Shown here: one piece after another, positions 3,535 to 30,485 of the stretch
How positions within the stretch are numbered: position 1 is the first letter of the stretch
Layout: the number at the start of each line of letters is the position of its first letter
NCBI RefSeq assembly: GCF_012863495.1
Contig: NZ_JAAVJL010000001.1
Coordinates: 2,971,501-3,035,500, forward strand
Reading direction: 5' to 3'
DNA from: Pseudanabaena yagii GIHE-NHR1
GTDB taxonomy: Bacteria; Cyanobacteriota; Cyanobacteriia; Pseudanabaenales; Pseudanabaenaceae
Length of the DNA: 64,000 nt
Translations under genes and position numbers: made by a program
Notes under the pieces: generated by a model
The model's input: only the letters and a program-made list of their open reading frames with translations
Told to the model about the DNA's origin: nothing
Database searches by the model: none

Positions 3535-3539
3535 CTTAC

Positions 3540-6157: not shown

Positions 6158-6841
6158 TTAATAACCAGAAAATATTTGGCTACCAACCCGAATCATCGTT
6201 GCACCTGCCTTAACTGCGATCGCATAGTCCGCCGACATCCCCATCGAGAGTTCTTGAATATTTGCCCAACCGAGCGATCGCAACTTTGCGGCTAATTCCC
6301 CTACACGACTAAAAACCTCATAGGCTTGATCTCCATTTAAGCCCAAAGGCAAAATCGTCATCAGTCCCACAATATCAAGGTTTTGCAACTTCTCTAATTG
6401 AGGTAAATCCGCTAATAGTTCTGCTTCTGTCCAACCTGATTTATGAGGATCTTCCGCCAGCTTTACCTGCAATAGTAATTTTGGTGATTTGCCGAGTTCC
6501 TGAATTAAGCGATCGCATTGTGAGGCAAGGCTAAGGCGATCAAGCGAATGAATCCAATCAAATTGGGCGATCGCTTGCCTTGCTTTGTTACTTTGCAATG
6601 ATCCAATCATGTGCCAAGTAATATCCGTTAAATCTGCAAGTTCCGTTTGTTTGATTTTGGAGTCCTGCACTCGCGATTCACCAAAATCACGCACCCCTGC
6701 CGCATAGGCAGCCCTCACAGCTTCCGTAGTCGTGTATTTACTAACAGCAACCAGTTTCACCTGCGGCGGGATATTGACACGAATTTGATTAAGACGATCA
6801 GCGATCGTTTGACTAATTGAAGCAGGATTAACTTCAGGCAT
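6158..6841 (-). CDS. YggS/PROSC family PLP-binding protein
   Basis: A cytosolic pyridoxal-5-phosphate carrier/homeostasis protein of the alanine-racemase-fold YggS family. The PLP lysine motif LVAVSKYTT is near the N-terminus. HMIGSLQSNK, LLLQVKLAEDPHKSG, LSMGMSADYAIAVKAGATMIRVGSQIFG-like blocks follow in family order. I take the ATG at 6841 (227 residues, normal family length). A TTG 45 bp upstream would add residues with no family counterpart. The gene stands alone, divergent from the toxin-antitoxin pair to its right, and ends in a hairpin. In cyanobacteria the gene is often called pipY; without the neighbouring pipX I leave the symbol empty. Confidence 0.9.
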   Translation of the reverse strand: MPEVNPASISQTIADRLNQIRVNIPPQVKLVAVSKYTTTEAVRAAYAAGVRDFGESRVQDSKIKQTELADLTDITWHMIGSLQSNKARQAIAQFDWIHSLDRLSLASQCDRLIQELGKSPKLLLQVKLAEDPHKSGWTEAELLADLPQLEKLQNLDIVGLMTILPLGLNGDQAYEVFSRVGELAAKLRSLGWANIQELSMGMSADYAIAVKAGATMIRVGSQIFSGY

Positions 6842-14434: not shown

Positions 14435-17071
14435 TTAGGCAAGTGCTATCTTTAGCTGAGATTCCGCAGCTTCTAGGGCTTCAGGCAATTTGCTCGCATC
14501 TTTGCCACCTGCTTGAGCGAGGTTCGGACGACCGCCGCCGCCGCCGCCACAGATTTTGGCGATCGCGCCGATAAATTTGCCAGCCTGTAAACCTTTAGCA
14601 TTGACCTCTTTACTGAAGGAAGCAACCAAGGTTACTTTGCCATCTTCAGTAAAGGAACCGAGAACTACAGCACTGTTACCGAGCTTTGCTGAGAGTTTTT
14701 CGGCAGCAGATTTCAAAGCTTCGGCTTCAATATCAGGGAGTTGGGCGACCAAGATCTTGAAATCGCCAACGGGTTGAGCTTCAGTCAGGAGGCTATCAGC
14801 TTTGACTAGGGCAAGCTGTTGCTTGAGAGTTTCTACTTCTTTTTGGGAATTTTTCAACTCGTTTTGCAAGCCTGTAATCCGATCGCTAATTTCTTCGGGC
14901 TTGATTTTAAAGCGATCGCTTAAGTCCTTGGTGATGTTGTCACGCACGGTTAAATATTCTAGAACCGCTTGACCTGCGATCGCTTCGATGCGGCGTACAC
15001 CTGAGGCAACACCAGTTTCAGAAATGATTTTGAATACACCGATTTCGCTGGTGTTCTTAACGTGAGTACCGCCACAAAGTTCCATCGATACGTTAGGAAT
15101 ATCCATCACGCGGACTTCTGCACCGTATTTTTCACCGAACATGGCGATCGCACCTTTCGCTTTGGCTTGGGCGATGGGTAATACTTCAATTACAGAGTCA
15201 TGGGCTTCGGCAATCCAGTTATTGATTTGGAGTTCGATTTGCTGGATTTCTTCCGCGGTGACACCACGATTGAGATTGAAGTCAAAACGGAGGCGATCGC
15301 TATCCACTAAAGAACCTGCTTGAGATACGTTAGAGTCAACGATTTTCTTCAGGGCTGATTGTAAGAGGTGGGTAGCGGTGTGGTGGGCTTGGATGCGGCG
15401 ACGCTCGGATACGGCGATTTGAGCATTGACACTATCACCGACCACAATTTCGCCACGTTCAATTTGTCCAATATGGATAAATAAATCAGCCTGCTTTTGC
15501 ACATCACTGATTTTGGCGATCGCTTCACCAATGGCAAGATGACCTGTATCGCCAACCTGTCCACCAGACTCCGCATAGAAGGGAGTCCGATCTAGCACGA
15601 TTTGGACTTTACTGCCAGCGATCGCCCTTTTTGCCAGTTCGCCATTGACCAGAATTGCTTTGACCGTAGCGGTGCTACTGAGTTCTGTATAGCCGAGAAA
15701 TTCAGTCTTACCGATTTCCTTAGCGATATTTACCCAGTTGTCTTTGGCTAGCAAATCAATATCTTCATGGGCAGCTTGTGATCGCTCCTGTTGCTTCTTC
15801 ATTTCTGACTCAAAGCCATCGGCATCAACGCTGAAACCTTCCTCTTCGGCAATCTCCTGCGTTAACTCAAGGGGGAATCCGTAGGTATCATAAAGAGTGA
15901 AGGCATCAACGCCCGAAATAGTTTTGCTAGCTTTGACTTCAGGTTTAGCCAGAATTTCTTCTAACAACTTCTCACCACGCTCTAGGGTTTGTAAGAAGCG
16001 AGTTTCTTCGATTTTGATTTCATCCTTGATCACCTGTTCTCTTTCGCGGGTATTGGGATAAACCGACTCGGAAAGGGCGATCGCTACTTCCGCAACTTCG
16101 GAGGCAAATGTTCCTGAGATGCCAATCAAGCGCCCATGGCGCACGACTCGACGCAGGAGGCGGCGCAAAATATAACCACGTCCGACATTAGAGGCATTAA
16201 TTCCATCGGCAATCATATGGACAACCGATCGCACATGGTCGCCAATTACTTTGAGCGAAGTTTTGACTTTTTCATCGCTCTTGTGATAATCAAGCCCTGC
16301 AATATCGGCAGCTTTTTTGATGATTGGGAAGATTAAATCGGTTTCGTAATTATTAGGAACGCCTTGCAATACCTGCGCCATCCGTTCCAAGCCTAAGCCT
16401 GTATCAATATTCTGCTTCTTCAGCTTAGTCAGATTACCTTGAGCATCACGATTCAATTCCATGAAGACAAGGTTATAAATCTCTAGGAAGCGCGAATCAT
16501 CTTCTAAATCGATATGCTCATCTCCTAGTTCTGGATGGAAGTCATAATAGATTTCTGAGCAAGGCCCACAGGGACCCGTTGCGCCCGATGCCCAGAAGTT
16601 ATCATCACCCATGCGCTGAATCCGATGGGCAGGAATCCCGATCGCATCGCGCCAAATCGCAAAGGCATCTTCATCGGTGTGATAGACACTAACCACGAGG
16701 CGATCGGGTGGCAGTTGAAATACTTTAGTGACTAGTTCCCATCCCCATGCGATCGCTTCTTTTTTGAAATAGTCACCAAAGCTGAAATTCCCTAACATTT
16801 CAAAAAAGGTATGGTGACGCGCAGTTCTACCCACATTCTCGATGTCATTGGTACGGATACATTTCTGAGATGTGGTGGCGCGAGGAACTTCAGGCTCTTG
16901 TTGCCCTAAAAAAATCGGTTTGAATGGTAGCATTCCCGCGATGGTGAGCAGTACGGTGGGATCGGCGGGGACGAGGGAGGCGCTAGGTAGTACTTTGTGG
17001 TTACGCTCTTCAAAGAATTTGAGGAATTTCGCACGAATTTCAGCACCAGTAAGGGAGGGAAGGCTAGCCAT
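14435..17071 (-). CDS. alaS: Alanyl-tRNA synthetase
   Basis: At 878 residues it has full bacterial length. The class II core opens with [15 protein letters not shown] and carries motif 2 in [21 protein letters not shown]. The editing domain has the zinc motifs [11 protein letters not shown] and CGGTH, followed by a coiled-coil helix and the C-terminal glycine-rich domain ([18 protein letters not shown]). It charges tRNA-Ala and clears Ser/Gly mischarging in the cytoplasm. The ATG at 17071 opens [13 protein letters not shown], matching cyanobacterial homologues. Transcribed alone with its own terminator. Confidence 0.97.
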
Positions 17072-17231
17072 GAACTTATGATTTAGGGTTTGATTTCAAG
17101 ATTTGGGTAAAAAGCGATCGTGTCGCTAAAAATCCGTAAACAATATTACGAATTGGCATAATTTGTCCATCTAGTATTATGCCACTAAGTTCAGACTGTC
17201 GTGGCAATTCATGAATTGCTTCTATGGTTGT

Positions 17232-17346
17232 TGGGGACTTTCTATTAATTAAAGTGCCTCTGGCTTCGGCTCCGCTCAGCCAACGTTAGCTGAGCGGAGT
17301 CGAAGCTATGCAACTTGGTAGGACATTTTTCTCAGTAAGTGCCTTA
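17232..17346. repeat. Palindromic interspersed element, copy 2 of 4
   Basis: Same orientation as copy 1: GGGGACTT at the left end, CTATTAATTAAAGT next, a central hairpin (GGCTTCGGCTCCGCTCAGC and its inverse), then TAGGACATTTTT and a right end AGTGCCTTA. It occupies the alaS-yggT divergent gap; outside it (17072-17231) I see only A/T-rich promoter-like sequence. Confidence 0.75.
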
Positions 17347-17395
17347 AGAAAAAATTAGTAAAACTGTTAGGATCGATCGCAATAAGTTTTGAAAA

Positions 17396-17692
17396 TTGGT
17401 GACTATCGTGGACGCGATCGCTGTTAGCTCTCTTGCGCTCAATATTGTGTTGGGACTATTCATCCTCATGTATATATTTCGCATCGTGATGACATGGTAT
17501 CCCCAGATTCCCCTCAAGCAATTTCCCTACAGCCTGATTACATTCCCCACTGAGCCTTTATTATTCGTGCTGCGGAAATTAATCCCACCGATCGGCGGCA
17601 TTGATATTTCCCCTGTGATCGGTGTGGGCATTTTCAGCCTTTTGCGCGAAATGTTATTAGGTCAGCAAGGCATTTTGACCATGCTTCAATAA
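17396..17692 (+). CDS. YggT-family membrane protein
   Basis: 98 residues with two hydrophobic helices (about 10-32 and 73-92) separated by the family block RIVMTWYPQIPLKQFPYSLI and the conserved PTEPLLFVLRKLIPPIGGIDISPVI-like segment. YggT proteins are small integral membrane proteins. In cyanobacteria and chloroplasts relatives affect thylakoid or nucleoid organisation and cytochrome b6 maturation, but the exact role here is unknown. The start is TTG at 17396 or the adjacent GTG. A terminator hairpin overlaps the stop region. Confidence 0.88.
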   Translation: MVTIVDAIAVSSLALNIVLGLFILMYIFRIVMTWYPQIPLKQFPYSLITFPTEPLLFVLRKLIPPIGGIDISPVIGVGIFSLLREMLLGQQGILTMLQ

Positions 17693-17693
17693 A

Positions 17694-17726
17694 TAAATGT
17701 TTAACACCGCAGGTGTTAAACATTTA
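17694..17726 (+). terminator. Hairpin terminator after yggT
   Basis: TAAATGTTTAACACC and GGTGTTAAACATTTA arms pair perfectly around GCA, just after the stop codon of the YggT gene. Confidence 0.75.
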
Positions 17727-17779
17727 TCTAGAAAAACTTGCTATAATTAAAAATTGTGATTATTTCAAGAGCGTAAGTT

Positions 17780-19075
17780 TTGATAGAACGCTATACGTTA
17801 CCCGAAATGGGTCGGTTATGGACGGATCGCCATAAATACCAAACTTGGTTGCAAGTTGAGATCGCCGTTTGCGAAGCACAGGCAGAACTAGGATATATTC
17901 CTGCCGATGCTGTCGAAGAAATTAAGGCGAAAGCAAACTTTGATGCCGATCGCGTCAATGAAATTGAGTTAACGGTCAAGCACGACATGATCGCGTTTTT
18001 GACCAACGTAAATGAATATGTAGGTGATGCAGGACGCTATATTCACCTCGGCTTGACTAGTTCCGATGTGCTAGATACGGCTCTAGCAGTGCAATTAGTC
18101 GATAGCTTAGAAATCATCCAAGCCCAGTTAGAAGAAGCCATCCAAGCAATTCGCTACCAAGCCCAACAACATCGCTACACGATTATGTCGGGTCGGACGC
18201 ATGGTATTCATGCGGAGCCAATTACCTTTGGATTTAAGCTCGCTGGCTGGTTAGCGGAAATGTTGCGCCATCGCGATCGCCTATTGAACTTAAATAAAAC
18301 GATCGCTGTCGGCAAAATTTCGGGCGCAGTCGGTACTTATGCCAATGTTGACCCACGCATTGAAGCGATCGCCTGTCAAAAGTTGGGACTACAGCCCGAC
18401 TGTGCATCGACGCAGGTAATTTCTCGCGATCGCCACGCCGAGTTCTCGCAAGTATTAGCCCTGATCGGCGCATCGATTGAGCGCTTTGCAGTGGAGATTC
18501 GTAACCTTCAGCGCACCGATGTCCTCGAAGTGGAAGAGCATTTCACCAAGGGACAAAAAGGTTCCTCAGCGATGCCCCACAAACGTAATCCGATCCGTTC
18601 GGAACGTTTAACAGGTATGGCGCGTTTGTTGCGTGGCTATGCAACTACGGCTTTAGAAAATGTGGCGCTATGGCATGAACGCGATATTTCCCACAGTGCG
18701 GCGGAACGGGTATTGCTCCCTGATAGCTGCATTCTCACTCACTTCATGCTTCGAGAAATCACGGACTTGACCAAGAATCTGTTGGTGCATACCCACAACA
18801 TGGAGCGCAATCTCTATTGTTATGGTGGTGTGGTCTTCAGTCAGCAGGTGTTGCTAGGACTAGTCACTAAGGGCTTGAGCCGTGAAGAGAGCTATGCGAT
18901 CGTCCAGAAAGCTGCTCACCTTGCATGGAATAAAACCGACGGTGATTTCCGTAAGTTAATCAGCGAAGATGAAACCGTGAAGAAAACTTTCTCCGAAGAA
19001 GAGTTAGCCGCTTGTTTCGATCCCAATAAGCATTTGAAGAATCTTGACCAGATTTATCAAAGGTTAGGAATTTAG
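17780..19075 (+). CDS. purB: Adenylosuccinate lyase
   Basis: 431 residues, the normal length, starting at a TTG as MIERYTLPEMGRLW, the conserved family opening. The fumarase/aspartase-superfamily signature loop GSSAMPHKRNPIRSE lies near residue 265, with the catalytic His regions TSSDVLDTA and SGRTHGIHAEPITFG before it. It catalyses two steps of purine synthesis (SAICAR to AICAR, adenylosuccinate to AMP), each releasing fumarate. The gene is single, with terminators on both sides. Confidence 0.97.
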   Translation: MIERYTLPEMGRLWTDRHKYQTWLQVEIAVCEAQAELGYIPADAVEEIKAKANFDADRVNEIELTVKHDMIAFLTNVNEYVGDAGRYIHLGLTSSDVLDTALAVQLVDSLEIIQAQLEEAIQAIRYQAQQHRYTIMSGRTHGIHAEPITFGFKLAGWLAEMLRHRDRLLNLNKTIAVGKISGAVGTYANVDPRIEAIACQKLGLQPDCASTQVISRDRHAEFSQVLALIGASIERFAVEIRNLQRTDVLEVEEHFTKGQKGSSAMPHKRNPIRSERLTGMARLLRGYATTALENVALWHERDISHSAAERVLLPDSCILTHFMLREITDLTKNLLVHTHNMERNLYCYGGVVFSQQVLLGLVTKGLSREESYAIVQKAAHLAWNKTDGDFRKLISEDETVKKTFSEEELAACFDPNKHLKNLDQIYQRLGI

Positions 19076-19145
19076 TTTTGGGCTTTTAGCTTTTAGCCAT
19101 TAGCTTTTAGCTTTTTGACAACTTTCTTTTCGATAACTTGAAGCT

Positions 19146-19175
19146 AAAAAGGCGGCGCAAAGCGCCGCTTTTTTA
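19146..19175. terminator. Bidirectional terminator, purB / SIMPL gene
   Basis: AAAAAGGCGGCGC with GCGCCGCTTTTTT around AAA, placed between convergent genes. The right arm includes the stop codon of the minus-strand gene. Confidence 0.75.
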
Positions 19176-19928
19176 TTCGACTGCAAAGGTAATCGCGACT
19201 ACGGCGCGGATATCTTTGTCGATGGTGGTGGTGTTGTATGCGCCACTGTTGCTGACTTCGGTGGAATATCGGGCAGTAATTTGGAAGACATCGGTTTCGG
19301 CTTTGCGGATTGTGCCGAGGCGACTGCCTGAGACATTGACGATCGCTTCACCTCTCGCCTTAGCATCCTTAGTCGCTTCAGAAATCATATCTACCCGCAA
19401 TTTGCCGAGTTCTGTATAGAGATATTCCGCAGGTTCGGAAATGAAGGGCAAACCATCATTAATCAATTCCGTACTCGATCGCGCGATCGCGGTAATTGCA
19501 TCGACATCTTTGGAACGGATTTCAAAACGCTGGACGAGGCGATAGGCAATGGTTCGACCTGTTTGCACGCCGTTACTATTTGTTTCGGGAATCGGTTGCG
19601 TATCGATCGCACTCAGGGTGATCGCCTCATTGGGAATATTTTTGCTCTTGAAGTAGGTTTGCACTTTTTCGGAATGGCGCTTCAGTTCTTGGTAGGCGAG
19701 GGGCAATGTGGCTTGCTGGCTAGAAACGGAACTTCGCCAAATCACAAAATCGGAACGAATCGGACGGGTTGAGGAACCAATTACAGTCAGGTTGTCGTTT
19801 GACCTGAGCGATCGCAGGGCATTACTGGCGAGATAGGCGCTACCGACGAGGGCGATCGCAAGGGCGAGCATTCCGCTAAAGAGTTGGGGAAATGCTTTGG
19901 GGGTTGGGGCGTTAGATTCTGGCAGCAT
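19173..19928 (-). CDS. SIMPL-domain (DUF541) exported protein
   Basis: From the ATG at 19928 it is 251 residues with one N-terminal membrane anchor (FSGMLALAIALVGSAYLA, about 15-35). A SIMPL domain follows: LTVIGSSTRPIRSDFVIWR at the start, helical SEKVQTYFKSKNI, and the C-terminal block AKARGEAIVNVSGSRLGTIRKAE. SIMPL/DUF541 proteins form periplasmic oligomers linked to stress or signalling, but no defined activity is known. An upstream in-frame TTG at 20000 would extend it by 24 polar residues before the anchor, which is less likely. Confidence 0.82.
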   Translation of the reverse strand: MLPESNAPTPKAFPQLFSGMLALAIALVGSAYLASNALRSLRSNDNLTVIGSSTRPIRSDFVIWRSSVSSQQATLPLAYQELKRHSEKVQTYFKSKNIPNEAITLSAIDTQPIPETNSNGVQTGRTIAYRLVQRFEIRSKDVDAITAIARSSTELINDGLPFISEPAEYLYTELGKLRVDMISEATKDAKARGEAIVNVSGSRLGTIRKAETDVFQITARYSTEVSNSGAYNTTTIDKDIRAVVAITFAVE

Positions 19929-20097
19929 GGCTTTGTGAGGAATCACTAAGTTAGCTGACGCAAAGCGTTGGGATTGGTTACGGGATGCAATAAATCGCAA
20001 CGATCATATTCCCGAAGTTTCCCTATTATTTCCTAGATTGCCCTTATCATTGAAATTAATGTTTTGCTAATGCTCAATACAAAAATAATTTTGCAAA

Positions 20098-20439
20098 ATG
20101 AAACTAGCAGATCGAGATCTTGAAATCGTAAATGCAAATAGTACGGTGTTGTCTTGCGAAGAGGCGATCACATTATTGCAAGAACACCGTGAGATGATCG
20201 CGCAGTTTCATGTTTCAGCTTTGTTTTTGTTTGGCTCGGTGGGTAGAAATGAGGCAAATGTTAAAAGTGATGTAGATTTGTTGGTGGAATTTGAGAAGCC
20301 TGTCGGTTTGTTTACCTTTGCGCGGTTACAACGTTATTTGGAAAAGGTTTTAGGTTGTGCGATCGACTTGGGGACACCTGATTCTTTGCAGCCTTATTTT
20401 CGTGATATCGTGCTAGCAGAATCAAAACGTGTCTTCTAG
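20098..20439 (+). CDS. MNT-type minimal nucleotidyltransferase
   Basis: 113 residues. The polymerase-beta-fold signature is complete: FGSVGR at 45-50, then SDVDLLVEF with the metal-binding Asp58 and Asp60, and a third acidic strand (CAIDLGTP). MNT proteins usually pair with a HEPN toxin and AMPylate it. Here there is no HEPN gene; a P-loop ATPase starts 9 bp downstream, followed by a TPR protein. A regulator that modifies the ATPase or TPR protein is therefore an attractive inference. A generic solitary MNT is the alternative. Confidence 0.85.
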   Translation: MKLADRDLEIVNANSTVLSCEEAITLLQEHREMIAQFHVSALFLFGSVGRNEANVKSDVDLLVEFEKPVGLFTFARLQRYLEKVLGCAIDLGTPDSLQPYFRDIVLAESKRVF

Positions 20440-20448
20440 AATTAAAGT

Positions 20449-21747
20449 ATGAGCGATCGCATCGAACAATTTCAGAAAGCTTCGCGTAACTTGCAGTTGC
20501 AGCCCCTTTTGACTGAAGAGGAGCGCCAAAAATTTATGGTGGATTATGGCAGCGAGTGTATTGATTCATTGGAGCAGAAGGTTTCAGGTTGCGATGAAAA
20601 TACTAATCAGTTTGTGTTTGCGGGACATCGTGGTTGTGGCAAATCGACCTTGCTATGCGATTTTGCTCAGCAAATGGAGGGACAATTTTTTACGGTGTTT
20701 TTCTCAATATCTGATTTAATTCAGATGAAAGAGATCAGCCATATTAATATTCTGTTTGCGATCGCCTTGAAGATGATGGAAAAGGCGGAACGGGATAATG
20801 TAAAAATAGCTGATGATAAAAAACAAGCTTTTTTTGATTGGTTTAAGGAACGCACGAAGACGGAAACCGTTGAGCTAAAAGGTCAGATGAGTGCGGGTTT
20901 GAGTCTGTTTGATGTAATTAAAAGCAAACTCTCGACCGAACAAAGTACTAAGGAAGAGATTAAGACTAAGTTCACGCAAAATTTCCGTGATTTGATAGAG
21001 ACTTTAAATGAGATTGCGACAGAAATTAAGTTGGCAACAAAATTAGAAATCTTGGTCATCGTTGATGATCTTGATAAGACAGATTTGGCGCAAATCGATG
21101 ATATTTTCCAAAAGAATCTCAAGGCTTTGCTTCAGCCTAAATTCATTATCATTTACACAGTGCCGATCGCTACGATTCGTGATGGTAAGCTGAAAAAGTA
21201 CATTGAAGACGAGACGGGTAATCGCATTTTTGTAATGCCCGTGCTGAAGCTTTATCCGATGGGTGAAAGCCGCAAACCTGACGGTAAGCCAAATCATAAT
21301 GCGATCGAGATTTTACAATCGGTATTAACGCGACGGATTGATCCTGATTTGTTTGAGGCTGGAATTGAGGTAAAAATTGCGCTGAATAGTGGTGGTGTGT
21401 TGCGTGAGGTGATGCGAATTACGAAGGAATGTTGTGATTTAATTTTGGTGAAGTTAAGGCAGCAAATGCGGCGTAAGCAGAATATTGAGAATTTGAAAAT
21501 CGATCAAGCGATTTTGGCTGAGGCTCTGGATAATATTCGCAATGATATGAAGATTACTTTGAGTAAGAGCGATCGCCAAATTTTGCTACAAACCTATGCA
21601 AACTATACGCCCGATGATCCTAAAGAGCAGGAGTTTTTGGATTTGTTGCATAATCTAGTAGCGATCGAATATCGCAATCGTGAGAGTTGGTATGATGTGC
21701 ATCCTTTGATGGTAGAGCAGTTGAAGATTGAGAAGTTGATTCCGTAA
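20449..21747 (+). CDS. P-loop ATPase of an MNT-ATPase-TPR block
   Basis: 432 residues. A Walker A loop FAGHRGCGKSTLL (about 58-70) and a Walker B strand ILVIVDDLDKTD (about 201-212) mark an AAA/STAND-like NTPase. Residues 130-190 are helical and rich in Lys/Glu. The C-terminal 120 residues look winged-helix-like (ALDNIRNDMKITLSKSDRQIL to WYDVHPLMVEQL), as in sensor ATPases of conflict systems. There is no recognisable enzymatic effector domain, so an effector would have to be a partner. It follows the MNT gene by 9 bp; the TPR gene is 111 bp downstream, separated by a C/G-rich repeat. Confidence 0.8.
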   Translation: MSDRIEQFQKASRNLQLQPLLTEEERQKFMVDYGSECIDSLEQKVSGCDENTNQFVFAGHRGCGKSTLLCDFAQQMEGQFFTVFFSISDLIQMKEISHINILFAIALKMMEKAERDNVKIADDKKQAFFDWFKERTKTETVELKGQMSAGLSLFDVIKSKLSTEQSTKEEIKTKFTQNFRDLIETLNEIATEIKLATKLEILVIVDDLDKTDLAQIDDIFQKNLKALLQPKFIIIYTVPIATIRDGKLKKYIEDETGNRIFVMPVLKLYPMGESRKPDGKPNHNAIEILQSVLTRRIDPDLFEAGIEVKIALNSGGVLREVMRITKECCDLILVKLRQQMRRKQNIENLKIDQAILAEALDNIRNDMKITLSKSDRQILLQTYANYTPDDPKEQEFLDLLHNLVAIEYRNRESWYDVHPLMVEQLKIEKLIP

Positions 21748-21759
21748 GTAATGTTGTCT

Positions 21760-21832
21760 AGCCCCCTAAATCCCCCAATACTGGGGGACTTCAAGAAAAA
21801 TCTTGTTCCCCCAGTATTGGGGGCTAGGGGGC
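21760..21832. repeat. C/G-rich inverted repeat (73 bp), copy 2 of 2
   Basis: AGCCCCCTAAATCCCCCAAT on the left and ATTGGGGGCTAGGGGGC on the right. It is the same element as 616-688 with a different loop. It falls between the ATPase and TPR genes and could fold in their transcript as a processing or attenuation site. Confidence 0.7.
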
Positions 21833-21858
21833 GAAACCTGTAGCCGTAGCAAGAGAAA

Positions 21859-23880
21859 ATGTCTGACTTAATTGTTCTCAATGAGGAAAATGCGAAGGTG
21901 TACGATCGCTTGGTCGTGTCCCTTGAGGCTGGGTTGGGAACTTTGCAGATTTTGCTGGCGGTATGTGATAACTCGGCATTGCGGCAGGAGATTATCCGAC
22001 GCTATGGGTCGGAGTTGGAGGCGCAGGGGGTGCGGGTCTATCGGTTGGCGCTAAATCCTGATGAGCCGAGTTTGTTGCAGGCTTTGATCGATGGCAAGAT
22101 TGATATTAATCAACAGGCGATCTCGACGGTGTTAGGGGCAGAGAAGTTAAGTAATTTGGGTGCGAATAATCGCGAAAAGTTAGATAGTTTTCTTGGCTAT
22201 TTGCAATGGACAAGGGAGGCTTTGCGGGGTTATCCTTTGCCGATTGTGTTGTGGTTGCCTTCGGCGGTATTGGTGGAGGTCGCCCAAAAAGCGCCCGATT
22301 TTTGGAGTTGGCGCAGTGGTGGAACGTTTCAGTTTGGCTTTGCGAAGTTGAATTTGCCAATTGATGATGCTGTCAAAGACCCGATATTCAAGCCAATTGA
22401 TAATCCTCAAAAATCAAGTTCAGTTCTGTCGATCAGACAATTAGAATCTTCTCTTGCAGAGGCTTTGGTTACTTGGGGTGAGGATAGTGCAAATATTGAA
22501 CCAATTTATGCATTATTGGGAAGAGCTTATGTTGAGCGAGTATGGAAAGGCGAAACGGAAAACTTAAAGCTTGAGATTGAGTTAGCAGAAACTTATCTTA
22601 ATAAGGCTATAGAATTACAAAAAAGATTTAATCGCAAATCTGATTTAACTTTTTCTCTCTCTTATTTAGGTTTTATGTATTCCAGATTAGGAGATTGGAA
22701 CAAAGCAGAAACTTTCTACAAACAATGTTTAGCAGTTGAAGAAGAATTAGGTATTCGCACGGGTATGGCAAGTTCTTGGGGACTATTGGGAGACATCGAG
22801 CGCAATCGTGGCAACTGGGATGCGGCGGAATCTCTCTACAAATTAAAACTTGAAACTTGTACTGAATTAGACGATAAGCATGGAATGTCACAAGTTATCG
22901 GTACATTAGGAGACATCGAGCGCAATCGTGGCAACTGGGATGCGGCGGAGTCTCTCTACAGGCAATCTTTGCAATTAAGAACTGAATTAGGCGATCGCGC
23001 GGGTATGGCTATGATTTGGGGTCAATGGGGAGGACTTGAGCAAATCCGTGGCAACTGGGATGCGGCGGAATCTCTCTACAGGCAATCTTTGCAATTAAGG
23101 ACTGAATTAGGCGATCGCGCGGGTATGGCAACTTCTTGGGGAGTATTGGGAGACATCGAGCGCAATCGTGGCAACTGGGATGCGGCGGAATCTCTCTACA
23201 GGCAATCTTTGCAATTAAGAACTGAATTAGGCGATCGCGCAGGTATGGCTTCTATCTGGGGACAATGGGGAGACATCGAGCGCAATCGTGGCAACTGGGA
23301 TGCGGCGGAATCTCTCTACAGGCAATCTTTGCAATTAAGAACTGAATTAGGTGATCGCGCGGGTATGGCAACTTCTTGGGGAGTATTGGGAGACATCGAG
23401 CGCAATCGTGGCAACTGGGATGCGGCGGAATCTCTCTATCAGCAATCTTTGCAATTACATGAAGAGTTAGGTGATCGCGCGGGTATGGCAACTTCTTGGG
23501 GACAATTGGGAGACATTGAGCGCAATCGTGGCAACTGGGATGCGGCGGAATCTCTCTACAAGCAATATTTGCAAATATGTACTGAATTAGGTGATCGCGC
23601 GGGTATGGCAACTTCTTGGGGAGTATTGGGAGACATCGAGCGCAATCGTGGCAACTGGGATGCGGCGGAATCTCTCTATCAGCAATCTTTGCAATTACAT
23701 GAAGAGTTAGGTGATTCTTACAAAATTGCTGTAAATTTTTCTGATTTTGCCTTACTCGAAAAACAACGCGGAAATCTCACCCTTGCTCAGCAATATTACG
23801 ACAAAGCAAAAAACATCTATCAACAACTCGGCGCAATCAAAGACCTAGAAGAAATTGAAAAGGAATGGCAGCAACTTTAA
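21859..23880 (+). CDS. NTPase-like N-domain plus TPR repeats
   Basis: 673 residues. The first about 190 form an alpha/beta domain (RLVVSLEAGLGTLQILLAV, YRLALNPDEPSLLQAL, FLGYLQWTREALRGYPLPIVLWLP). It follows the pattern of a STAND-type NTPase but has no Walker A loop, so it is probably catalytically dead. After a linker come tetratricopeptide units of exactly 40 residues. About eight read almost identically (GDIERNRGNWDAAESLY then QSLQLRTELGDRAGMA) and they end near residue 620. TPR arrays bind protein partners. The 5-prime neighbours (MNT and ATPase) suggest a complex in which this is the recognition or scaffold part; that is inference. Confidence 0.8.
   Translation: MSDLIVLNEENAKVYDRLVVSLEAGLGTLQILLAVCDNSALRQEIIRRYGSELEAQGVRVYRLALNPDEPSLLQALIDGKIDINQQAISTVLGAEKLSNLGANNREKLDSFLGYLQWTREALRGYPLPIVLWLPSAVLVEVAQKAPDFWSWRSGGTFQFGFAKLNLPIDDAVKDPIFKPIDNPQKSSSVLSIRQLESSLAEALVTWGEDSANIEPIYALLGRAYVERVWKGETENLKLEIELAETYLNKAIELQKRFNRKSDLTFSLSYLGFMYSRLGDWNKAETFYKQCLAVEEELGIRTGMASSWGLLGDIERNRGNWDAAESLYKLKLETCTELDDKHGMSQVIGTLGDIERNRGNWDAAESLYRQSLQLRTELGDRAGMAMIWGQWGGLEQIRGNWDAAESLYRQSLQLRTELGDRAGMATSWGVLGDIERNRGNWDAAESLYRQSLQLRTELGDRAGMASIWGQWGDIERNRGNWDAAESLYRQSLQLRTELGDRAGMATSWGVLGDIERNRGNWDAAESLYQQSLQLHEELGDRAGMATSWGQLGDIERNRGNWDAAESLYKQYLQICTELGDRAGMATSWGVLGDIERNRGNWDAAESLYQQSLQLHEELGDSYKIAVNFSDFALLEKQRGNLTLAQQYYDKAKNIYQQLGAIKDLEEIEKEWQQL
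22793..23715 (+). repeat. Tandem 120-bp repeats inside the TPR gene
   Basis: Roughly eight head-to-tail 120-bp units, each beginning GGAGACATCGAGCGCAATCG or a close variant. Identity is very high at the DNA level, including silent positions, which points to recent unit duplication or homogenisation. Confidence 0.9.
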
Positions 23881-24041: not shown

Positions 24042-24119
24042 AGCTGTCTAGGGCATAGGATCAACTTATATGAAATTATACCAAAGTCTCCAATTTAACT
24101 TTGCACTAATAAACTGACC

Positions 24120-24235
24120 AAGGCTCTTGCGGATAAAAAATTTCCCACCAAAGTTATCTAGCTTCGACTTCGCTCAGCTAAAGTTGGCTGAGCGGAGTCG
24201 AAGCCACAGGTACTTTAATTAATCGCAAGTCCCTA
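24120..24235. repeat. Palindromic interspersed element, copy 3 of 4
   Basis: Opposite orientation to copies 1 and 2: left end AAGGCTCTTGCGGATAAAAA, central hairpin GCTTCGACTTCGCTCAGC with its inverse, then TACTTTAATTAAT and the right end GCAAGTCCCT. It is the best view of the outer ends together with copy 4. Confidence 0.75.
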
Positions 24236-24303
24236 AACGATCGCAACTTATCACCAAAACTATTTCTAGGTTTTAATAGGACTAGTAAGCAACTATTTGA
24301 TTT

Positions 24304-24960
24304 ATGCCTAATAAACTTGGATTTTGGTTGATTTGGATTTTATTTTCGGTCTATGCCTTCATCTTTGCGCCGCCCGATCGCCCCGACACCTTGCAACTAA
24401 TTCTCAAGTTGAGTACGGGAGACTGGCAAGGCACAAACGCCTTGATCGTTGCCCTGTTTAACCTCATGGGCGTATTTCCCTTCATTTATGCCTGTATGCT
24501 AGCCAGCGACGGACGAGGACAAAAAGTACCCGCTTGGCTATTTGGCAGCCTCTCATTTTTGGTCGGAGCCTTTGCTTTACTTCCCTACTTCGCCCTGCGC
24601 GAACTAAATCCCACCTTTATCGGCAAAAAGAATCGACTGATTTCCGCCTTAGAGTCACGCTGGACAGGGATTGGACTTAGCGCGATCGCCATTTACTTTC
24701 TCGTCTATGGATTCGCCAATGGTGACTGGGCTGATTTTATCCAGCAATGGCAAACTAGCCGATTTATCCATGTGATGACATTAGACTTCTGTATGTTGTC
24801 ACTGCTATTTCCTTGGTTACTCAGCGATGACATGGAAAGACGCGGCATGACCGACGATCGCTTTTTTACATTTATTGCCCTAGTTCCCCTAGTCGGCGCA
24901 TTGATTTATCTCTGTTTGCGATCGCCTTTAATCGAAAGCGAACAAGAAGCAACCGCTTAA
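24304..24960 (+). CDS. DUF2834-type multi-pass membrane protein
   Basis: 218 residues with about six hydrophobic segments (near 5-22, 47-65, 78-97, 118-136, 155-172 and 188-206). It shows the pattern of cyanobacterial DUF2834-containing proteins: LNLMGVFPF-like helix, SLSFLVGAFALLPYFALRELNP, and a conserved acidic loop SDDMERRGMTDDRF. Function unknown; family assignment is from recognition of the layout and is moderate. It ends in a bidirectional hairpin shared with the kinase-family gene on the other strand. Confidence 0.65.
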   Translation: MPNKLGFWLIWILFSVYAFIFAPPDRPDTLQLILKLSTGDWQGTNALIVALFNLMGVFPFIYACMLASDGRGQKVPAWLFGSLSFLVGAFALLPYFALRELNPTFIGKKNRLISALESRWTGIGLSAIAIYFLVYGFANGDWADFIQQWQTSRFIHVMTLDFCMLSLLFPWLLSDDMERRGMTDDRFFTFIALVPLVGALIYLCLRSPLIESEQEATA

Positions 24961-24965
24961 AATAT

Positions 24966-25000
24966 CAATAAGAAAGAGCGCTTTGCGCTCTTTCTTATTG
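24966..25000. terminator. Bidirectional terminator
   Basis: CAATAAGAAAGAGCGC pairs perfectly with GCGCTCTTTCTTATTG around TTT, between convergent genes. Confidence 0.8.
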
Positions 25001-25852
25001 GCAGATACTTTCAATCATCCGATTAGCTTGGGAGCCGTAGCCGCCGCCAAAGAGATTGAAGTGATTGAGAATGTGATAGAGATTGTAGAGAGTCTTGCGC
25101 TCTTTGTAGCCAGCATCAAGAGGATAAGCCGCATTGTAGGCGCGATAAAACTGCGATGGAAAGCCACCAAATAACTCAGTCATTGCTAAATCCACTTCGC
25201 GATCGCCAAAATATAGCGCAGGGTCGAAAATCACAGGCTCACCCTTGACAAAGGCAGCATTGCCACCCCAGAGATCCCCATGCACCATCGAGGGTTGTGG
25301 CTGATAATCGCGAAAAAATTTAGGTAGAGCCGCATAGATTTTCTCTTCGGGAATACTGCAACGCCAACCTTTGCGTTTCGCTAAACGAATTTGAAAAGCG
25401 AGCCGATATTCACGCCAGAAATCCAGCCAACTATTTGTCCAATTGTTAATCTGGGGAGTTGTACCAATCGTATTGTCACGATCCCAACCAAACCCGCGAT
25501 CTCTCGTCACCCGATGCATCGCCGCTAGATACCGACCCATCGCTTCCCAATCCTGACCTCCACCTAAATCGAGATTTTCCATCACCAAATAAGCTGCCTC
25601 ACCAGCGATCCCCCAACAGATCGGCTGGGGTACGCGCATTGTTTTGGTCGCATACATTTGCTGGAGTGCGATCGCCTCCGCCACAAACATATCTAACTGA
25701 TTAGCGGTATTTGTTTTTACAAAAAAATCACGCTTTCCATCGGATATTTTAGTGGTCTGGTTAATGCAGCCACCCGACTGCGCTTGACGGCGATCGCTTG
25801 TAAATTTTGCACCCGTTGCCTGCGAAATAGCGATCGCAATTTCATCCCACAT
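24995..25852 (-). CDS. Fructosamine kinase family protein
   Basis: 285 residues from the ATG at 25852 (an in-frame GTG lies 21 bp upstream). The phosphotransferase fold is clear: FFVKTN supplies the ATP lysine, AIALQQM the helix Glu, SMVHGDLWGGNAAF the catalytic loop with Asp, and PVIFDPALYFGDREVDLAM the metal site. Fructosamine-3-kinase relatives phosphorylate ketoamines formed by protein glycation so that they break down. Bacterial members likely repair glycated amines. No operon partner. Confidence 0.9.
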   Translation of the reverse strand: MWDEIAIAISQATGAKFTSDRRQAQSGGCINQTTKISDGKRDFFVKTNTANQLDMFVAEAIALQQMYATKTMRVPQPICWGIAGEAAYLVMENLDLGGGQDWEAMGRYLAAMHRVTRDRGFGWDRDNTIGTTPQINNWTNSWLDFWREYRLAFQIRLAKRKGWRCSIPEEKIYAALPKFFRDYQPQPSMVHGDLWGGNAAFVKGEPVIFDPALYFGDREVDLAMTELFGGFPSQFYRAYNAAYPLDAGYKERKTLYNLYHILNHFNLFGGGYGSQANRMIESICQ

Positions 25853-26015
25853 AGTTTTTAATCCGAAATACACAATTGAGTAGAGGTTTAGCCTATGTTC
25901 TCAATAAAACGTAACCCCAAAATTTAAAGACGGTTCGTATACTGTGAACTAACACAATGACTTAAATAATTGAATCAACAATTAATTTTTAAAAACTACC
26001 TTAAATTGGTGCAAT

Positions 26016-26327
26016 ATGATGAACGACATTGGTAAGTATCGCTTTGTTTGTACCCTTACTCTCAGCGACATTCTGGGTCAGGTAATTGTTTGGCTAGGCG
26101 TAATTTTTGCCTCCCTTGCGGCAGCACTCTCCCTGATGAGTAAACCCGTTTATTCCTTTGGAGCAGTTGGCTTAATTGTAGTGACATCTCTACCATTTTT
26201 GCTCTTTACCTTCGTCACCACATTATTTAATCACATTGATATTGTGCCTCTCACCGAAGAGGAAATTAAGCGTAACAATTCCAAAATATCAGGTGTACGC
26301 AAAACCGTAGCTAAAGCTTCTGTATAG
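26016..26327 (+). CDS. Small membrane protein, unknown function
   Basis: 103 residues with two strong membrane helices (about 20-42 and 48-70) and a charged C-terminal tail (EEEIKRNNSKISGVRK) that would face the cytoplasm. Two adjacent ATGs open the frame. I do not recognise a named family. The gene has its own hairpin terminator overlapping the stop codon and precedes another small membrane protein gene on the same strand. Confidence 0.6.
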   Translation: MMNDIGKYRFVCTLTLSDILGQVIVWLGVIFASLAAALSLMSKPVYSFGAVGLIVVTSLPFLLFTFVTTLFNHIDIVPLTEEEIKRNNSKISGVRKTVAKASV

Positions 26328-26365
26328 AGCAAAGAGGGGTACATTTTGCCCCTCCTTTGCTCTAT
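26324..26365 (+). terminator. Hairpin terminator
   Basis: ATAGAGCAAAG-AGGGG and CCCCT-CCTTTGCTCTAT arms with a short loop, starting at the stop codon of the small membrane gene. Confidence 0.7.
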
Positions 26366-26431
26366 GGACATTATGAGCATTGTTTGATAAACCATTAGCT
26401 AAGAAATTTTTAGAAACAAGGTTTAATCACT

Positions 26432-26779
26432 GTGCGCCAGCTTAATTTTGTTGTTATTTTTGTCGTTGCTCTTGCTTTAGTATTGTTTGCCCTAGAAAAT
26501 ACTGCTGCTGCTCCTATCCAAATCATTCCCCAAATTAAAGTCGCAGCACCGATTTCCGTAGAGCTAATTTTAGCAATGGGCTTAGGTGCAGTCTTAGCTT
26601 GGATTTTTAGCGTTTGGTCGGGGTTGCAAAAATCGATCGAAATGCGTAACCAGAATATGCAAATCCAGAATTTAAAAGAAACTGTTGAAAATTTAACTGT
26701 TGAGATTGAAGAGCGCAAACGCTTGGTCTCTGCTTCAGCGATCGATGTCGAGATTGATGAAGACAAATCTAAAAACTAA
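26432..26779 (+). CDS. LapA-domain membrane protein
   Basis: 115 residues from a GTG start. Two membrane helices (about 4-20 and 42-62) flank the short periplasmic loop typical of LapA/YciS proteins (FALENTAAAPIQIIP). A cytoplasmic coiled coil (QNLKETVENLTVEIEERKRL) follows. In enterobacteria LapA works with LapB in lipopolysaccharide assembly; in cyanobacteria the family sits widely without a known role. A hairpin ending in a T tract directly follows. Confidence 0.8.
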   Translation: MRQLNFVVIFVVALALVLFALENTAAAPIQIIPQIKVAAPISVELILAMGLGAVLAWIFSVWSGLQKSIEMRNQNMQIQNLKETVENLTVEIEERKRLVSASAIDVEIDEDKSKN

Positions 26780-26814
26780 AAATAAAGGGCGCTTTGCGTC
26801 CTTTATTTTTAGTT
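26774..26814 (+). terminator. Terminator after lapA-like gene
   Basis: AACTAAAAATAAAGG pairs with CCTTTATTTTTAGTT around a GCGC-type top, followed by T6. Confidence 0.8.
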
Positions 26815-26874
26815 TTTTATGGATAGATCGCTCCAATCGGTGATATTTTTAAACATCCGCTTCTCGCAAGCTCC

Positions 26875-27699
26875 ATGACCCTATCGATCGCCGAATCAGT
26901 TACCAAAGATGCCATTGCCTTATTGATTGACCTTGCAGAACGTGGCGAGATCGATCCGTGGGATGTACAGGTTATTGATGTGGTTGATCGCTTTTTATCA
27001 CGGCTAATTGTGAGCGATCGTCGTGATTTATATGACTCAGGACAGGCGATGCTCTATGCAGCGATGTTGGTCTTACTTAAGGCAAACTCCTTATCAGAAA
27101 GTCAAAGTGCCTATGACCAAGCCGAAGAACTTGCTGGGGAGTTAGAAGAATTAGAGTCTGAAGTCGCAACATCTCTACGCCTGCCTACGGATTTTGATAA
27201 GAGGCTGCGGCGCTTACCTGTTGCCCTGCCTCCTAAAGCCCGACGGATTACCCTCGAAGAGTTAATTGCCCAGATCGAAGCGATCGCCGAAATTGTAGAT
27301 CGTAAAAGTAGTAAACCTGCCAAACGCCAGAAACAAAGTAAAGTAGCGCGTAAGGCTGCAATGAAAGCGATCGCCCAACTCGCCCACAAAGAAAATCTCT
27401 CAGAGATGGTGGAAGAAATTGAGCGTTATTTTTTACTACATCCCGATGAAGAGATTGAGATATCGGATTTAGCCGCAGTATTTAATGATCGTGTGGGCGT
27501 ATTTTGGGGCTTACTACTAATGTCTTCGCAGTCCAAGGTGGAATTATTTCAAGAAGAATTTTATGGCAAAATTCAAATCGTCCCGACGGTTAAAACCGCA
27601 ACTATCAAGGAAGTCCCCTTTGCCAACAGCACATCTAATTCCACAGTAGAATCTACTCAGCTACAATTGACATTCTCTGAATTAAAAGAAGTTTCGTGA
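26875..27699 (+). CDS. scpA: Segregation and condensation protein A
   Basis: 274 residues, the kleisin subunit of the bacterial SMC-ScpAB complex. The N-terminal helical domain contains LLIDLAERGEIDPWDVQVIDVVDRFL and LVLLKANSLSES, the SMC-neck-binding signature. The middle binds ScpB, and the C-terminal winged helix (EIEISDLAAVFNDRVGVFWGLLLMSSQSKVELFQEEFYG-like) caps the SMC head. The complex loops chromosomal DNA for segregation. The next gene overlaps it by 4 bp (GTGA), so they are co-transcribed. Confidence 0.92.
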   Translation: MTLSIAESVTKDAIALLIDLAERGEIDPWDVQVIDVVDRFLSRLIVSDRRDLYDSGQAMLYAAMLVLLKANSLSESQSAYDQAEELAGELEELESEVATSLRLPTDFDKRLRRLPVALPPKARRITLEELIAQIEAIAEIVDRKSSKPAKRQKQSKVARKAAMKAIAQLAHKENLSEMVEEIERYFLLHPDEEIEISDLAAVFNDRVGVFWGLLLMSSQSKVELFQEEFYGKIQIVPTVKTATIKEVPFANSTSNSTVESTQLQLTFSELKEVS

Positions 27700-28286: not shown

Positions 28287-30485
28287 TTATATGCCTGTAA
28301 TGCGGAGAATTCTTGATTCGATTTCTTCCCATACTTTGCGAGAAACCGCGATCGCAATATTCTTGCATTTCACCATTAATAAATTGGCGTATAGATAATT
28401 TTCGAGGGATTCCACTTCATGATGGGAAATTTGATTTAAGTCCACGGGTAGATATAAAGTTTGTATCCAGACCCGACTGATCTGATTACGAAAATCTTCG
28501 CGAACTTCAAAGGGTTGATCGTAGCTGGGGACTTGATCAATTAAAGATTCCAATCTAGCACTCAAAGCCATAAAATTAATATATCTCTTGTCAAAATCAA
28601 TCTTCACAAGAGTTTGTTCTAGATCATTACATAGCTGGATCACTAAATTAAGTTCAGTATTACTATCAAAATCCAAAGCTTGAGCGAGACTCAGCGATAA
28701 ATCTGAGGCAAACACTTTATCGAAATTAGGTGATAAATCAAAAGTACAATATAGCTCACGGGCAAGTTCTAACATTCTCGTCAAAACAAGTGCAGGCGAG
28801 ATTTCCGCTAAAAACCGAGGACGTGCCAAAAACAATGCGGCAATACGTTTAGCTACACTTTTTTGTGTCCCCCGAGAATGAATATTAATCTGTTCTATCC
28901 ATTCTAAAATATCGCTTAGTTTATTTGTATTAATATAACTGGCAGCCTGTATCTCTATCGATAACAACAGTTCTTCAACATTGCCATTAGCAATTCCTGC
29001 AAGTAATAGAAATATATTCTGCCAACGGCGATCGCTCAAGTGCTGTGGAACTATCTGTTTTACTAAATTGTGATTGTAGATGTAGCGAGCTACAAAATAT
29101 TCCTGAAAAGTAATATGGCTAAAGGTGAAACTCGTTAAACCTGCAACAGTATTGATTTTGCAAATTCCTATCTTCTGTAAAACTTTTAATAAGTTAAAAC
29201 TAACTTCAACTTTTTCTAACACCCCAATATAGCTAGTTAAGATTTCCTGTAAATATTCTGTCAAATCTTGAAATGGCAGGAGCGACTGACATAGCTCAAA
29301 GCTCTTATAGGCAATCTCCGTCAGCAGAATCTCTAAAATGTCGGTACTAATAATATTTTGACCTTGATCATTCAATAATTGATAGTTCAGTACCTGCTCC
29401 TCTAAGACTAAATTGATTGCTTTTTGATAAAGACCACTCACATTGCTCGGTAAACTCAATCGGCGATCGCATAGCAAGCATAAAAATGATAAAGACAAAG
29501 GCGAATTGGCTAAGTCTCTGGCAACTGCATTTAATTGCAAGATTTGCCAGCAGCGTTGCGCTTCCTGTGATGCTATATCAGCAAGCTTGGAAGAATCATT
29601 AGAAGTCCCATTTACATCTCGATTAGCTCTAGATTCATAGTTGATCGTAAACCACTTATGAATATATTCCTGAATATGTAAATCATCCCAAGTTTGCATT
29701 TCTAATTCTAAGAACTGCCCCAAATTCCTTTGGTAAGACACCAAACGACTAGAAACAATGTAACGGTTATGCGGATAGGCTTTGACAAATTCTTTTAAAT
29801 GTTGAGATAGATACCTTTGCGATAAGGTCGATTCATTTAAACCATCCACCAAAATTAATAGGTTCCCTTGCTCTAACATCCATATGGTAAGCTCACGAGA
29901 TTCAGGGAAACCGCATTTCTCAAATTCCTCTGCGATCGCCTGTAGTAAATTGTCCGTATTCAGACAAAATTTCCACAAATGGATAAACACAGGCAAAACA
30001 TCATGCTTATATCGGGATTCTGGATAGTACAAAGCCTCTAATCCAATGTATTTTAAGAAAGTCGTCTTCCCCACCGTAGGCTTTCCTAAGATCATTAGAT
30101 AGACTTCTTCATTAGCAATATTCAATCCCAACAGATTATTGCCTTTACTGTAGTTACTTCTCTGAAGGTCGTGAGCAAAGGCTTCTTCCAAATCATTAAC
30201 TGATTCAAAACTACGGACAGAGGTATAGGCTTGAAATTTCTGACCGATATAAATGGAAGATAGGGTTGTTAGTTTTTGACTGCCAAATATCTGCGTAAAT
30301 GCATAGGACTTGATATAGTTACGTGCATATTGACTTGCTGCTTTAGAGATGGCATGAACAAAATAAGCTTCATCAATCTCGCCTCCCCTCTTTCTAACGC
30401 TTTCTGGAAATCCTGATAATGCAGCCTTGAATCTTTGCACAACCTCGCGAATAGTTTGTTCTTGCTTAATATTCATCGCCAACAT
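28287..30485 (-). CDS. NACHT-domain STAND NTPase
   Basis: 732 residues. The N-terminal about 120 residues are helical with no domain I can name. The NACHT core has Walker A GKPTVGKTT at 134-142, Walker B LLILVDGLNE (Asp214 with the characteristic trailing DGLNE) and a sensor arginine in RYIVSSR. Residues 330-520 form the winged-helix and helical bundle (LCLLCDRRLSLPSNVSGLY, FTFSHITFQEYFVARYIY). The rest is alpha-helical. Bacterial NACHT proteins are NLR-like sensors and several defend against phage. No separate effector gene is adjacent, so the N-terminal helical part would be the effector candidate. Confidence 0.85.
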   Translation of the reverse strand: MLAMNIKQEQTIREVVQRFKAALSGFPESVRKRGGEIDEAYFVHAISKAASQYARNYIKSYAFTQIFGSQKLTTLSSIYIGQKFQAYTSVRSFESVNDLEEAFAHDLQRSNYSKGNNLLGLNIANEEVYLMILGKPTVGKTTFLKYIGLEALYYPESRYKHDVLPVFIHLWKFCLNTDNLLQAIAEEFEKCGFPESRELTIWMLEQGNLLILVDGLNESTLSQRYLSQHLKEFVKAYPHNRYIVSSRLVSYQRNLGQFLELEMQTWDDLHIQEYIHKWFTINYESRANRDVNGTSNDSSKLADIASQEAQRCWQILQLNAVARDLANSPLSLSFLCLLCDRRLSLPSNVSGLYQKAINLVLEEQVLNYQLLNDQGQNIISTDILEILLTEIAYKSFELCQSLLPFQDLTEYLQEILTSYIGVLEKVEVSFNLLKVLQKIGICKINTVAGLTSFTFSHITFQEYFVARYIYNHNLVKQIVPQHLSDRRWQNIFLLLAGIANGNVEELLLSIEIQAASYINTNKLSDILEWIEQINIHSRGTQKSVAKRIAALFLARPRFLAEISPALVLTRMLELARELYCTFDLSPNFDKVFASDLSLSLAQALDFDSNTELNLVIQLCNDLEQTLVKIDFDKRYINFMALSARLESLIDQVPSYDQPFEVREDFRNQISRVWIQTLYLPVDLNQISHHEVESLENYLYANLLMVKCKNIAIAVSRKVWEEIESRILRITGI

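Follow-up and report, generated by a model that had tools for sequence, protein, structure and literature searches.

Introduction

Fungal NLRs whose TPR, ANK or WD repeats are highly conserved internally (repeats >85% identical to each other across 100 aa or more) are described as polymorphic in repeat number and subject to concerted evolution (PMC4986451). The repeats of the hnwd family rearrange spontaneously according to the accessible text of PMC2873952. For cyanobacteria, PMC9218822 refers to work by Dunin-Horkawicz et al. (2014) on STAND proteins whose beta-propellers were amplified recently, and surveys of TPR and STAND conflict systems of multicellular bacteria exist, as far as the excerpts of PMC7159879 and PMC8195603 indicate.

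NLR-type receptors with near-identical repeats that turn over are known from fungi and, in the form of beta-propellers, from cyanobacteria. In the locus described here, one chromosomal site carries the same DNA repeats downstream of either of two unrelated NTPase modules, in three clades of close relatives, so that the way in which bacteria diversify NLR-like sensors can be tested directly with isolates of one genus. Among the matches listed in a literature search for Pseudanabaena TPR or NLR/STAND repeats, which mostly left subscription journals outside, the locus was not described in titles or abstract beginnings. The DNA analyzed, called the window, is a stretch of 64,000 nucleotides from contig 1 (2971501-3035500) of genome G000, a Pseudanabaena-type cyanobacterium with a genome of 5.57 Mb.

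The TPR gene and its repeat array

The following features of the window are referred to throughout:

20440-22704, forward strand: segment with the ATPase and the N-terminal domain; blastn finds no homology to it in G002 or G014, which carry a NACHT/NB-ARC module instead
20449-21747, forward strand: P-loop ATPase partner of 432 aa, with GHRGCGKST as Walker A and ILVIVDDLDK as Walker B-like motif
21859-23880, forward strand: TPR gene with the reported repeats, 673 aa, Pfam TPR_12 (E=4.2e-69)
21859-22653, forward strand: N-terminal domain of the TPR gene (aa 1-265 as searched), with conserved QWTRE and KAPDFWSWR
22666-22785, forward strand: u0, diverged first TPR unit, inside which the NLR-type homology restarts
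22786-23745, forward strand: u1-u8, eight near-identical 120-bp units (TRF, unit alignment)
23746-23865, forward strand: u9, C-terminal cap unit of the FALLEKQRGNL type

The original prediction of about eight near-identical 120-bp TPR units was confirmed, with u1-u8 lying between divergent end units. TRF reported a period of 120 with 7.9 copies (score 1300, span 22744-23697), and the array is in register from u0 to u9 with 40 codons per unit. The common unit of u1-u8 is LGDIERNRGNWDAAESLYRQSLQLRTELGDRAGMATSWG, which u1 and u8 match only in part. The repeats are TPRs both by the Pfam profile and by fold, as the model shows helices from residue 192 to 672, mostly with a pLDDT >87. Compared with the LGN TPR structure 4wnd, the model of the TPR protein reaches a Z of 31.4 (rmsd 2.9, 317 aligned); its structure matches (VIA rows) span mainly residues 214-673. 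An antisense ORF at 23252-23611 overlaps the array and was taken as a by-product of the repeats; the arrays of relatives are also overlapped by antisense ORFs, which vary in length.

Likeness and silent drift among the units

The first unit is diverged, as had been predicted, with 43-65 mismatches per 120 bp between u0 and u1-u8, and so is u9 with 76-82. The claim of almost no silent drift stood for the first 54 bp of the unit (codons 1-18), where the DNA is nearly invariant: u1 and u4 are identical there, u5-u8 differ in one codon each, u2 in two and u3 in five (codons 1, 3, 4, 6, 7, near the unit start). It did not stand for the rest, since 53 of the 467 same-amino-acid codon comparisons among u2-u7 (11%) are silent differences, compared with 17 of 297 (6%) over codons 1-24. 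The mean ps of 0.21 over the 15 pairs of u2-u7 is about that of the three flanking genes between the window genome and its near relative G021 (0.16-0.18). Homogeneity is mosaic, u1 being diverged in codons 19-40 and u8 in its last 10 codons. At the protein level, u2-u7 are about 85.5% identical over 240 aa (87 differing codons in 15 pairs of 40), a borderline value against the >85% criterion.

For the comparison between genomes, a core-motif filter kept 48 units, u0, u9 and other divergent units falling outside, and 47 were left after removal of one G005 unit with an ambiguous base. The set of 35 internal units excludes u1 of G000, the final core unit of every complete array and the units that stand singly in G001, in G004 and on the second contig of G006; the pairwise site table was restricted to pairs with at most 30 mismatches. 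In this set, from nine genomes, units differ by 15.6 mismatches per 120 bp within and by 19.8 between genomes (permutation P=5e-5), a signature of concerted evolution.

Repeat number and turnover in relatives

The repeat number, which had been expected to vary, differs between species: the window gene has 8 core units, and its orthologues have 4 (G021), 4 (G009), 5 (G012), 5 (G003), 4 (G006) and 1 (G001). A constant array in all relatives, which would have spoken against turnover, was not observed. This comparison covers one genome per species and seven genomes with a complete orthologue, in which the N-terminal domain is 69-100% identical; an eighth orthologue, in G016, is cut by a contig end. 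In total, N-terminal-domain matches at E<=1e-30 were found in 11 of the 26 genus genomes and a close orthologue in 8, while G020, G022 and G017 hold paralogues with best matches about 37-38% identical. In G032, from another genus of the family, the domain is fused, at the end of a contig, to another kind of TPR unit that is about 42 residues long. The locus L137 of G001 (7793-9007) is the orthologue with one core unit and has no adjoining ATPase gene.

Higher-order duplications were detected at a shift of 240, with identities over 240 bp of 0.988 in G012 and 1.000 in G002. An identity of >85% over 240 bp at a repeat shift occurs in 36 of 87 family genes (three genomes being counted twice), so that repeat turnover is habitual in the family; the window gene (0.946) is not extreme, since G002 reaches 1.00 and two Nostoc loci reach 0.996, the highest values. 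In the comparison of G000 with G021, the DNA identity is 87-98% in the 300-bp bins of 16001-22600 and 24101-27100, compared with 47-84%, gapped, in the four bins of 22601-23800, and 73-83% beyond 27100.

Turnover of units is supported by their varying number, the 240-bp duplications and the homogenisation within genomes, and the evolutionary pattern at the locus, with turnover and shared repeats, is well supported. The predicted recent expansion or gene conversion holds as far as turnover is concerned, but the silent likeness also extends across species and across two architectures, which goes beyond expansion within one gene.

Two sources of the units were rejected as candidates. For a donor paralogue in the same genome, all 8 DNA matches to one unit (E<=0.001; 40 of 92 first-look candidates scored) lie inside the array, and the other protein matches are 21-36% identical, except one of 42% over 51 residues. 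For phage transfer, the core pattern had no exact match in viral contigs, which is weak evidence because only exact matches were considered.

The same repeats behind a NACHT/NB-ARC module

A DNA search with one unit detected the repeats in 11 of the 26 genus genomes. In three of the 26 (G014, G005 and G002), they are fused in one gene to an NTPase, here called the NLR module, and their best units over 104 bp are 98%, 97% and 97% identical, respectively, to the window unit. The N-terminal domain of the window gene was not found in these three genomes at E<=1e-30; at E<=0.001, weak matches (1e-7 or worse) appeared in G014 and G002 and none in G005. A Pfam scan of the G002 and G014 proteins identified NACHT (43.8 and 33.5 bits, cut-off 26.7) and NB-ARC (29.4 and 25.7 bits, cut-off 23.5) together with TPRs; the G005 module was placed by its 87% identity to the G002 module. 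The G002 and G014 alleles are therefore STAND/NLR proteins in the sense of a NACHT or NB-ARC NTPase fused to repeats. In a search for an effector domain, no Pfam match was found N-terminal to the NTPase in these two proteins.

In the blastn comparison with G002, the window is homologous from 17725 to 20439 (~95%), without homology from 20440 to 22704 and homologous again from 22705; with G014, homology breaks at 20441 and restarts at about 22696. The breaks at about 20440 and 22700 mean that the site and the repeats are the same and that the front module is unrelated. A second swap pair is formed by G012 (split type, with ATPase and TPR in adjacent genes) and G005 (NLR type), which have the same arrangement beside the same flanking gene. 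At least one flanking gene of the window (19173-20000 or 24304-24960) adjoins the locus in 10 of the 11 repeat-bearing genomes, the exception being G006. In G015, the two flanking genes are adjacent with about 150 bp between them, so there is no module there. The G004 contig starts inside the array, and this genome stands outside the architecture assignment. The mutual exclusion of the two architectures (8 versus 3 of 26, none with both) has a probability of about 0.31 by chance and was not used as evidence.

The ATPase partner and the N-terminal domain

In the window, the TPR protein is no STAND/NLR protein by the same definition, as its NTPase is encoded by the separate upstream gene: the best 25 of its 29 Pfam matches include no NTPase family, and no Walker A is present in the sequence. 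Its N-terminal aa 1-247 have no Pfam match, effector domains included. The model shows alternating helices and strands over aa 9-159 and no Walker A, and QWTRE and KAPDFWSWR are invariant columns in 32 sequences; judging by the model, the N-terminal part may be a degenerate NTPase-like domain.

The upstream ATPase has a STAND/AAA+-like fold (model pLDDT 89) with a helical/winged part at the C-terminus. G59, H60, G62, G64, K65, D206 and D207, comprising the Walker A and the acidic Walker B residues, are invariant in 29 sequences. Its model matches, over nearly the whole length, the P. abyssi ATPase 2qen (Z 16.7, rmsd 4.4, 304 aligned), Cdc6/Orc1 2qby (Z 16.6), TnsC 7mbw (Z 16.4), the NRC4 resistosome 9cc9 (Z 14.6), CED-4 4m9s (Z 14.2) and also RPP1. 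Since STAND and other AAA+ members are found at similar Z, the modelled fold alone does not separate the two for this protein. In Pfam, AAA_16 and NACHT remain below the cut-off, and KAP_NTPase reaches 21.5 (cut-off 20).

Of 80 related cyanobacterial loci, 76 have an ATPase match on the same strand and at most 1.5 kb upstream of the TPR gene; the two frequently overlap, and at a few loci the match is a fragment only. No such match was found at L059, L109, L125 and L132, of which L132 sits at the edge of a contig. Within the genus and family, the ATPase gene is found in 7 of 8 orthologous loci, G009 being partial at a contig edge and G001 lacking it. The pair also occurs, in its cyanobacterial form, at L115 on a contig labelled Candidatus Gracilibacteria MAG, which is probably mis-binned. 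Between the ATPase and TPR genes of the window, a long inverted repeat (ccccctaaatcccccaatactggggg...) is located at 21760-21833.

Genomic neighborhood

Upstream of the locus, an MNT-type nucleotidyltransferase (MntA-like, below the cut-off) is encoded at 20098-20439 (forward strand) and occupies the same site in G021, G002 and G014, whichever module comes next. A further NLR-like gene near the locus, at 28287-30485 (reverse strand), encodes a protein of NACHT type, as judged from the NCH2 domain at its C-terminus. In two other species, NACHT-like ORFs with 25-29% identity to this protein are present at L183 (G020, 3987-6482) and L188 (G008, 2056-4380), with two ORFs in G008, at a distance of some 1 to 1.5 kb from the local homologue of flanking gene 19173-20000; the site beside this gene may be a general insertion site.

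Farther downstream are an LRR-Roc-COR GTPase (39328-42246, forward strand) with a 69-bp (23-aa) LRR array at 39570-40243 and, within 51441-64000 on the reverse strand, four TPR-CHAT (caspase-like) genes (51441-53915, 55044-57575, 57625-60273, and 61579 to the window end). Two of the latter have 120-bp repeat arrays of their own, at 52960-53696 and 63164-63986.

PADLOC assigned generic TPR and C3a156 ('oxidoreductase') matches to the repeats, a short VakA match (E=9.8e-8) to the ATPase, and PDC-S09 with weaker matches to the neighboring nucleotidyltransferase; it also gave a weak HEase match (E=0.042), and no complete named anti-phage system was found by it at the locus.

Locus history and probable exchange between species

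On a tree calculated from flanking-gene DNA (three genes, 25 rows; quick search with SH-aLRT as the only support), the NLR type appears three times, and each time its clade also contains a split-type genome. G005 groups with G012 and with G022, which has neither architecture (SH-aLRT 99), G014 groups with G009 (SH-aLRT 100), and G002 groups with G000, G021 and two genomes with neither architecture (SH-aLRT 95). G000, G021 and G002 are about equally distant, and at least 3 architecture changes are required on this tree. The concatenated tree is approximate, since the flanking genes disagree in their history: between G000 and G009, their silent divergence is 0.19, 0.48 (19173-20000) and 0.12 (24304-24960), and the homologues of 19173-20000 in G014 and G009 are located on other contigs.

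Divergence along the locus is mosaic. Between G002 and G005, the flanks have silent-codon divergences of 0.26, 0.39 and 0.48, the NLR module one of 0.18 and the array one of 0.12; between G002 and G014, NLR residues 1-185 diverge by 0.12 and those after residue 190 by 0.57. Among the split-type loci, G003 and G012 diverge by 0.36 in the ATPase and 0.17 in the N-terminal domain, and G000 and G021 by 0.12-0.16 in the flanks, 0.13 in the ATPase and 0.26 in the N-terminal domain. In all 13 pairs, the array diverges by 0.10-0.23, compared with 0.10 to 0.50 for the flanking genes.

The likeness of units between genomes is independent of architecture (20.2 mismatches for the same, 19.3 for different architectures, P=0.75). 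The longest runs identical to the window array, compared for three NLR-type and four split-type arrays with G001 and G006 left out, measure 96 bp (G002), 84 bp (G014) and 59 bp (G005) in the NLR arrays and 37-47 bp in the split-type arrays of G021, G009, G003 and G012. We interpret the mosaic divergence and the shared runs as the outcome of interspecies homologous recombination at this site, in which the repeats are the common stretch; a DNA constraint on the unit could add to the likeness across species.

Selection on the units

The ratio of nonsynonymous to synonymous changes per site is 0.36 overall (parsimony count, 35 units), which indicates mostly purifying selection; as the units recombine, this tree-based count is approximate. 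Among single codons, only codon 40 had P<0.05 (0.012, before correction for 40 tests), and none was significant for positive selection after this correction. A group of five codons had been chosen after seeing the data and was not used.

Positions 2, 5, 6, 9, 12, 13, 33 and 34 are what we take to be the canonical concave, ligand-facing positions of a TPR; they were not picked from the data, but they were specified at a point when the variable columns were already known. Nonsynonymous changes are enriched there (57.7 to 21.3, versus 70.3 to 77.7 at the others; Fisher P=1.5e-4, position permutation P=0.005). The earlier idea of a recognition protein under selection is plausible, with the preference for concave positions in its favour and the overall ratio and the single codons against it. 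The unit sequences suggest diversification of a binding face, short of proving positive selection.

Proposed model and alternative explanations

Taken together, the locus is rather probably a recombining STAND/NLR-like sensor locus, with a TPR array that turns over and is common to interchangeable NTPase modules. The array would be the sensor part of this signaling locus, and in the window the receptor would be split over two adjacent genes, the ATPase switch (20449-21747) and the TPR sensor (21859-23880). Units would be gained, lost and homogenised by recombination among near-identical copies, probably through unequal crossing-over together with gene conversion, and recombination in the array and its flanks would also trade whole upstream modules between species. 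The concave face of the TPR superhelix may bind a variable ligand, upon which the NTPase partner, separate or fused, would interact with the TPR part, switch and oligomerise to signal, possibly in defence. That the array acts as a recombination handle, through which the signaling half of an NLR-like receptor is swapped and the sensing half is kept and reshuffled, is a more tentative extension, which we hold to be possible rather than probable.

If true, the locus would encode a combinatorial receptor in a prokaryote that resembles the fungal allorecognition NLRs but works without a dedicated diversifying enzyme. Against the sensor model stand the lack of a recognised effector domain in either architecture, the lack of a complete named PADLOC system and the mostly purifying ratio. 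In many Nostoc relatives, an open frame of about 592-600 codons is kept with the same ATPase; this steadiness in length would also suit a housekeeping regulator and would count against a sensor.

A housekeeping scaffold, in which ATPase and TPR adaptor have a constant role, repeat number drifts neutrally and modules are swapped incidentally by homologous recombination, is the alternative to be taken most seriously, though we judge it unlikely. It would fit a pair that is widespread and rather steady in length in Nostoc, the ratio of 0.36, and the readiness with which tandem repeats expand, as in the 36 of 87 family genes above. The replacement of the whole ATPase module by the NLR module in three clades and the patchy presence, with the close N-terminal orthologue in 8 and the NLR module in 3 of the 26 genus genomes, would, however, be unusual for such a gene. 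The preference of changes for the presumed ligand-facing positions also argues against it.

The silent identity might instead reflect a constraint, on codons or on structure, that acts on the unit as DNA or mRNA, and not recent turnover. Codons 9-23 have the same silent choices in many units of G012, G003 and G001, species in which 27-28% of the silent codons of the N-terminal domain differ. This explanation is nevertheless quite improbable in view of differing array lengths, the exact 240-bp duplication in G002, exchanged segments in non-repeat parts of the locus, and silent variants specific to a genome, such as CGT at codon 8 in u1-u8 of the window and CGA in all five core units of G012. 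An assembly artefact with collapsed or mis-joined repeats, to which the contigs of G004, G005 and G006 that begin or end inside arrays might point, is hardly credible, because the near-complete assemblies of the window genome (9 contigs), G021 (8) and G002 (1) differ in unit number and architecture with intact flanks.

Comparison with known systems

For the sensor locus favoured here, a related named family is NCBIfam NF047389 (P-loop ATPase Sll1717 family), which the ATPase partner matches over residues 51-229 (E=1.5e-8) with 34.2 bits; with a curated cut-off of 75, the partner is no member by that rule. PDB 6mfv, a STAND protein with a TPR sensor, likewise combines NTPase and TPR and has a long Foldseek alignment to the window TPR protein, which is only loose evidence at an rmsd of 23 A over 675 columns. 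By its title, 6mfv has the TPR sensor on the same chain, whereas the NTPase is a separate gene here.

The cyanobacterial WRAP STAND-WD40 proteins share fast-turning, recently amplified repeats with the locus and are thought to be innate-immunity-like, according to the available part of PMC9218822. Their repeats are beta-propellers, in contrast to the TPRs here, and that part of the source describes no exchange of unrelated NTPase modules.

A close parallel is the HNWD/NWD family of Podospora anserina (het-d, het-e, het-r), together with the fungal NLRs of high internal repeat conservation (PMC4986451, PMC2873952). These proteins are fungal single polypeptides, best studied for WD40, with variation among isolates within a species and a recognition phenotype, whereas the window locus is bacterial, has 40-aa TPRs and a split ATPase, and is known through sequence comparison between species. 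Like the window locus, they are of the STAND type with near-identical repeats, number polymorphism and concerted evolution, and they likewise have repeats exchanged between genes, few diversifying positions and combinatorial N-terminal parts.
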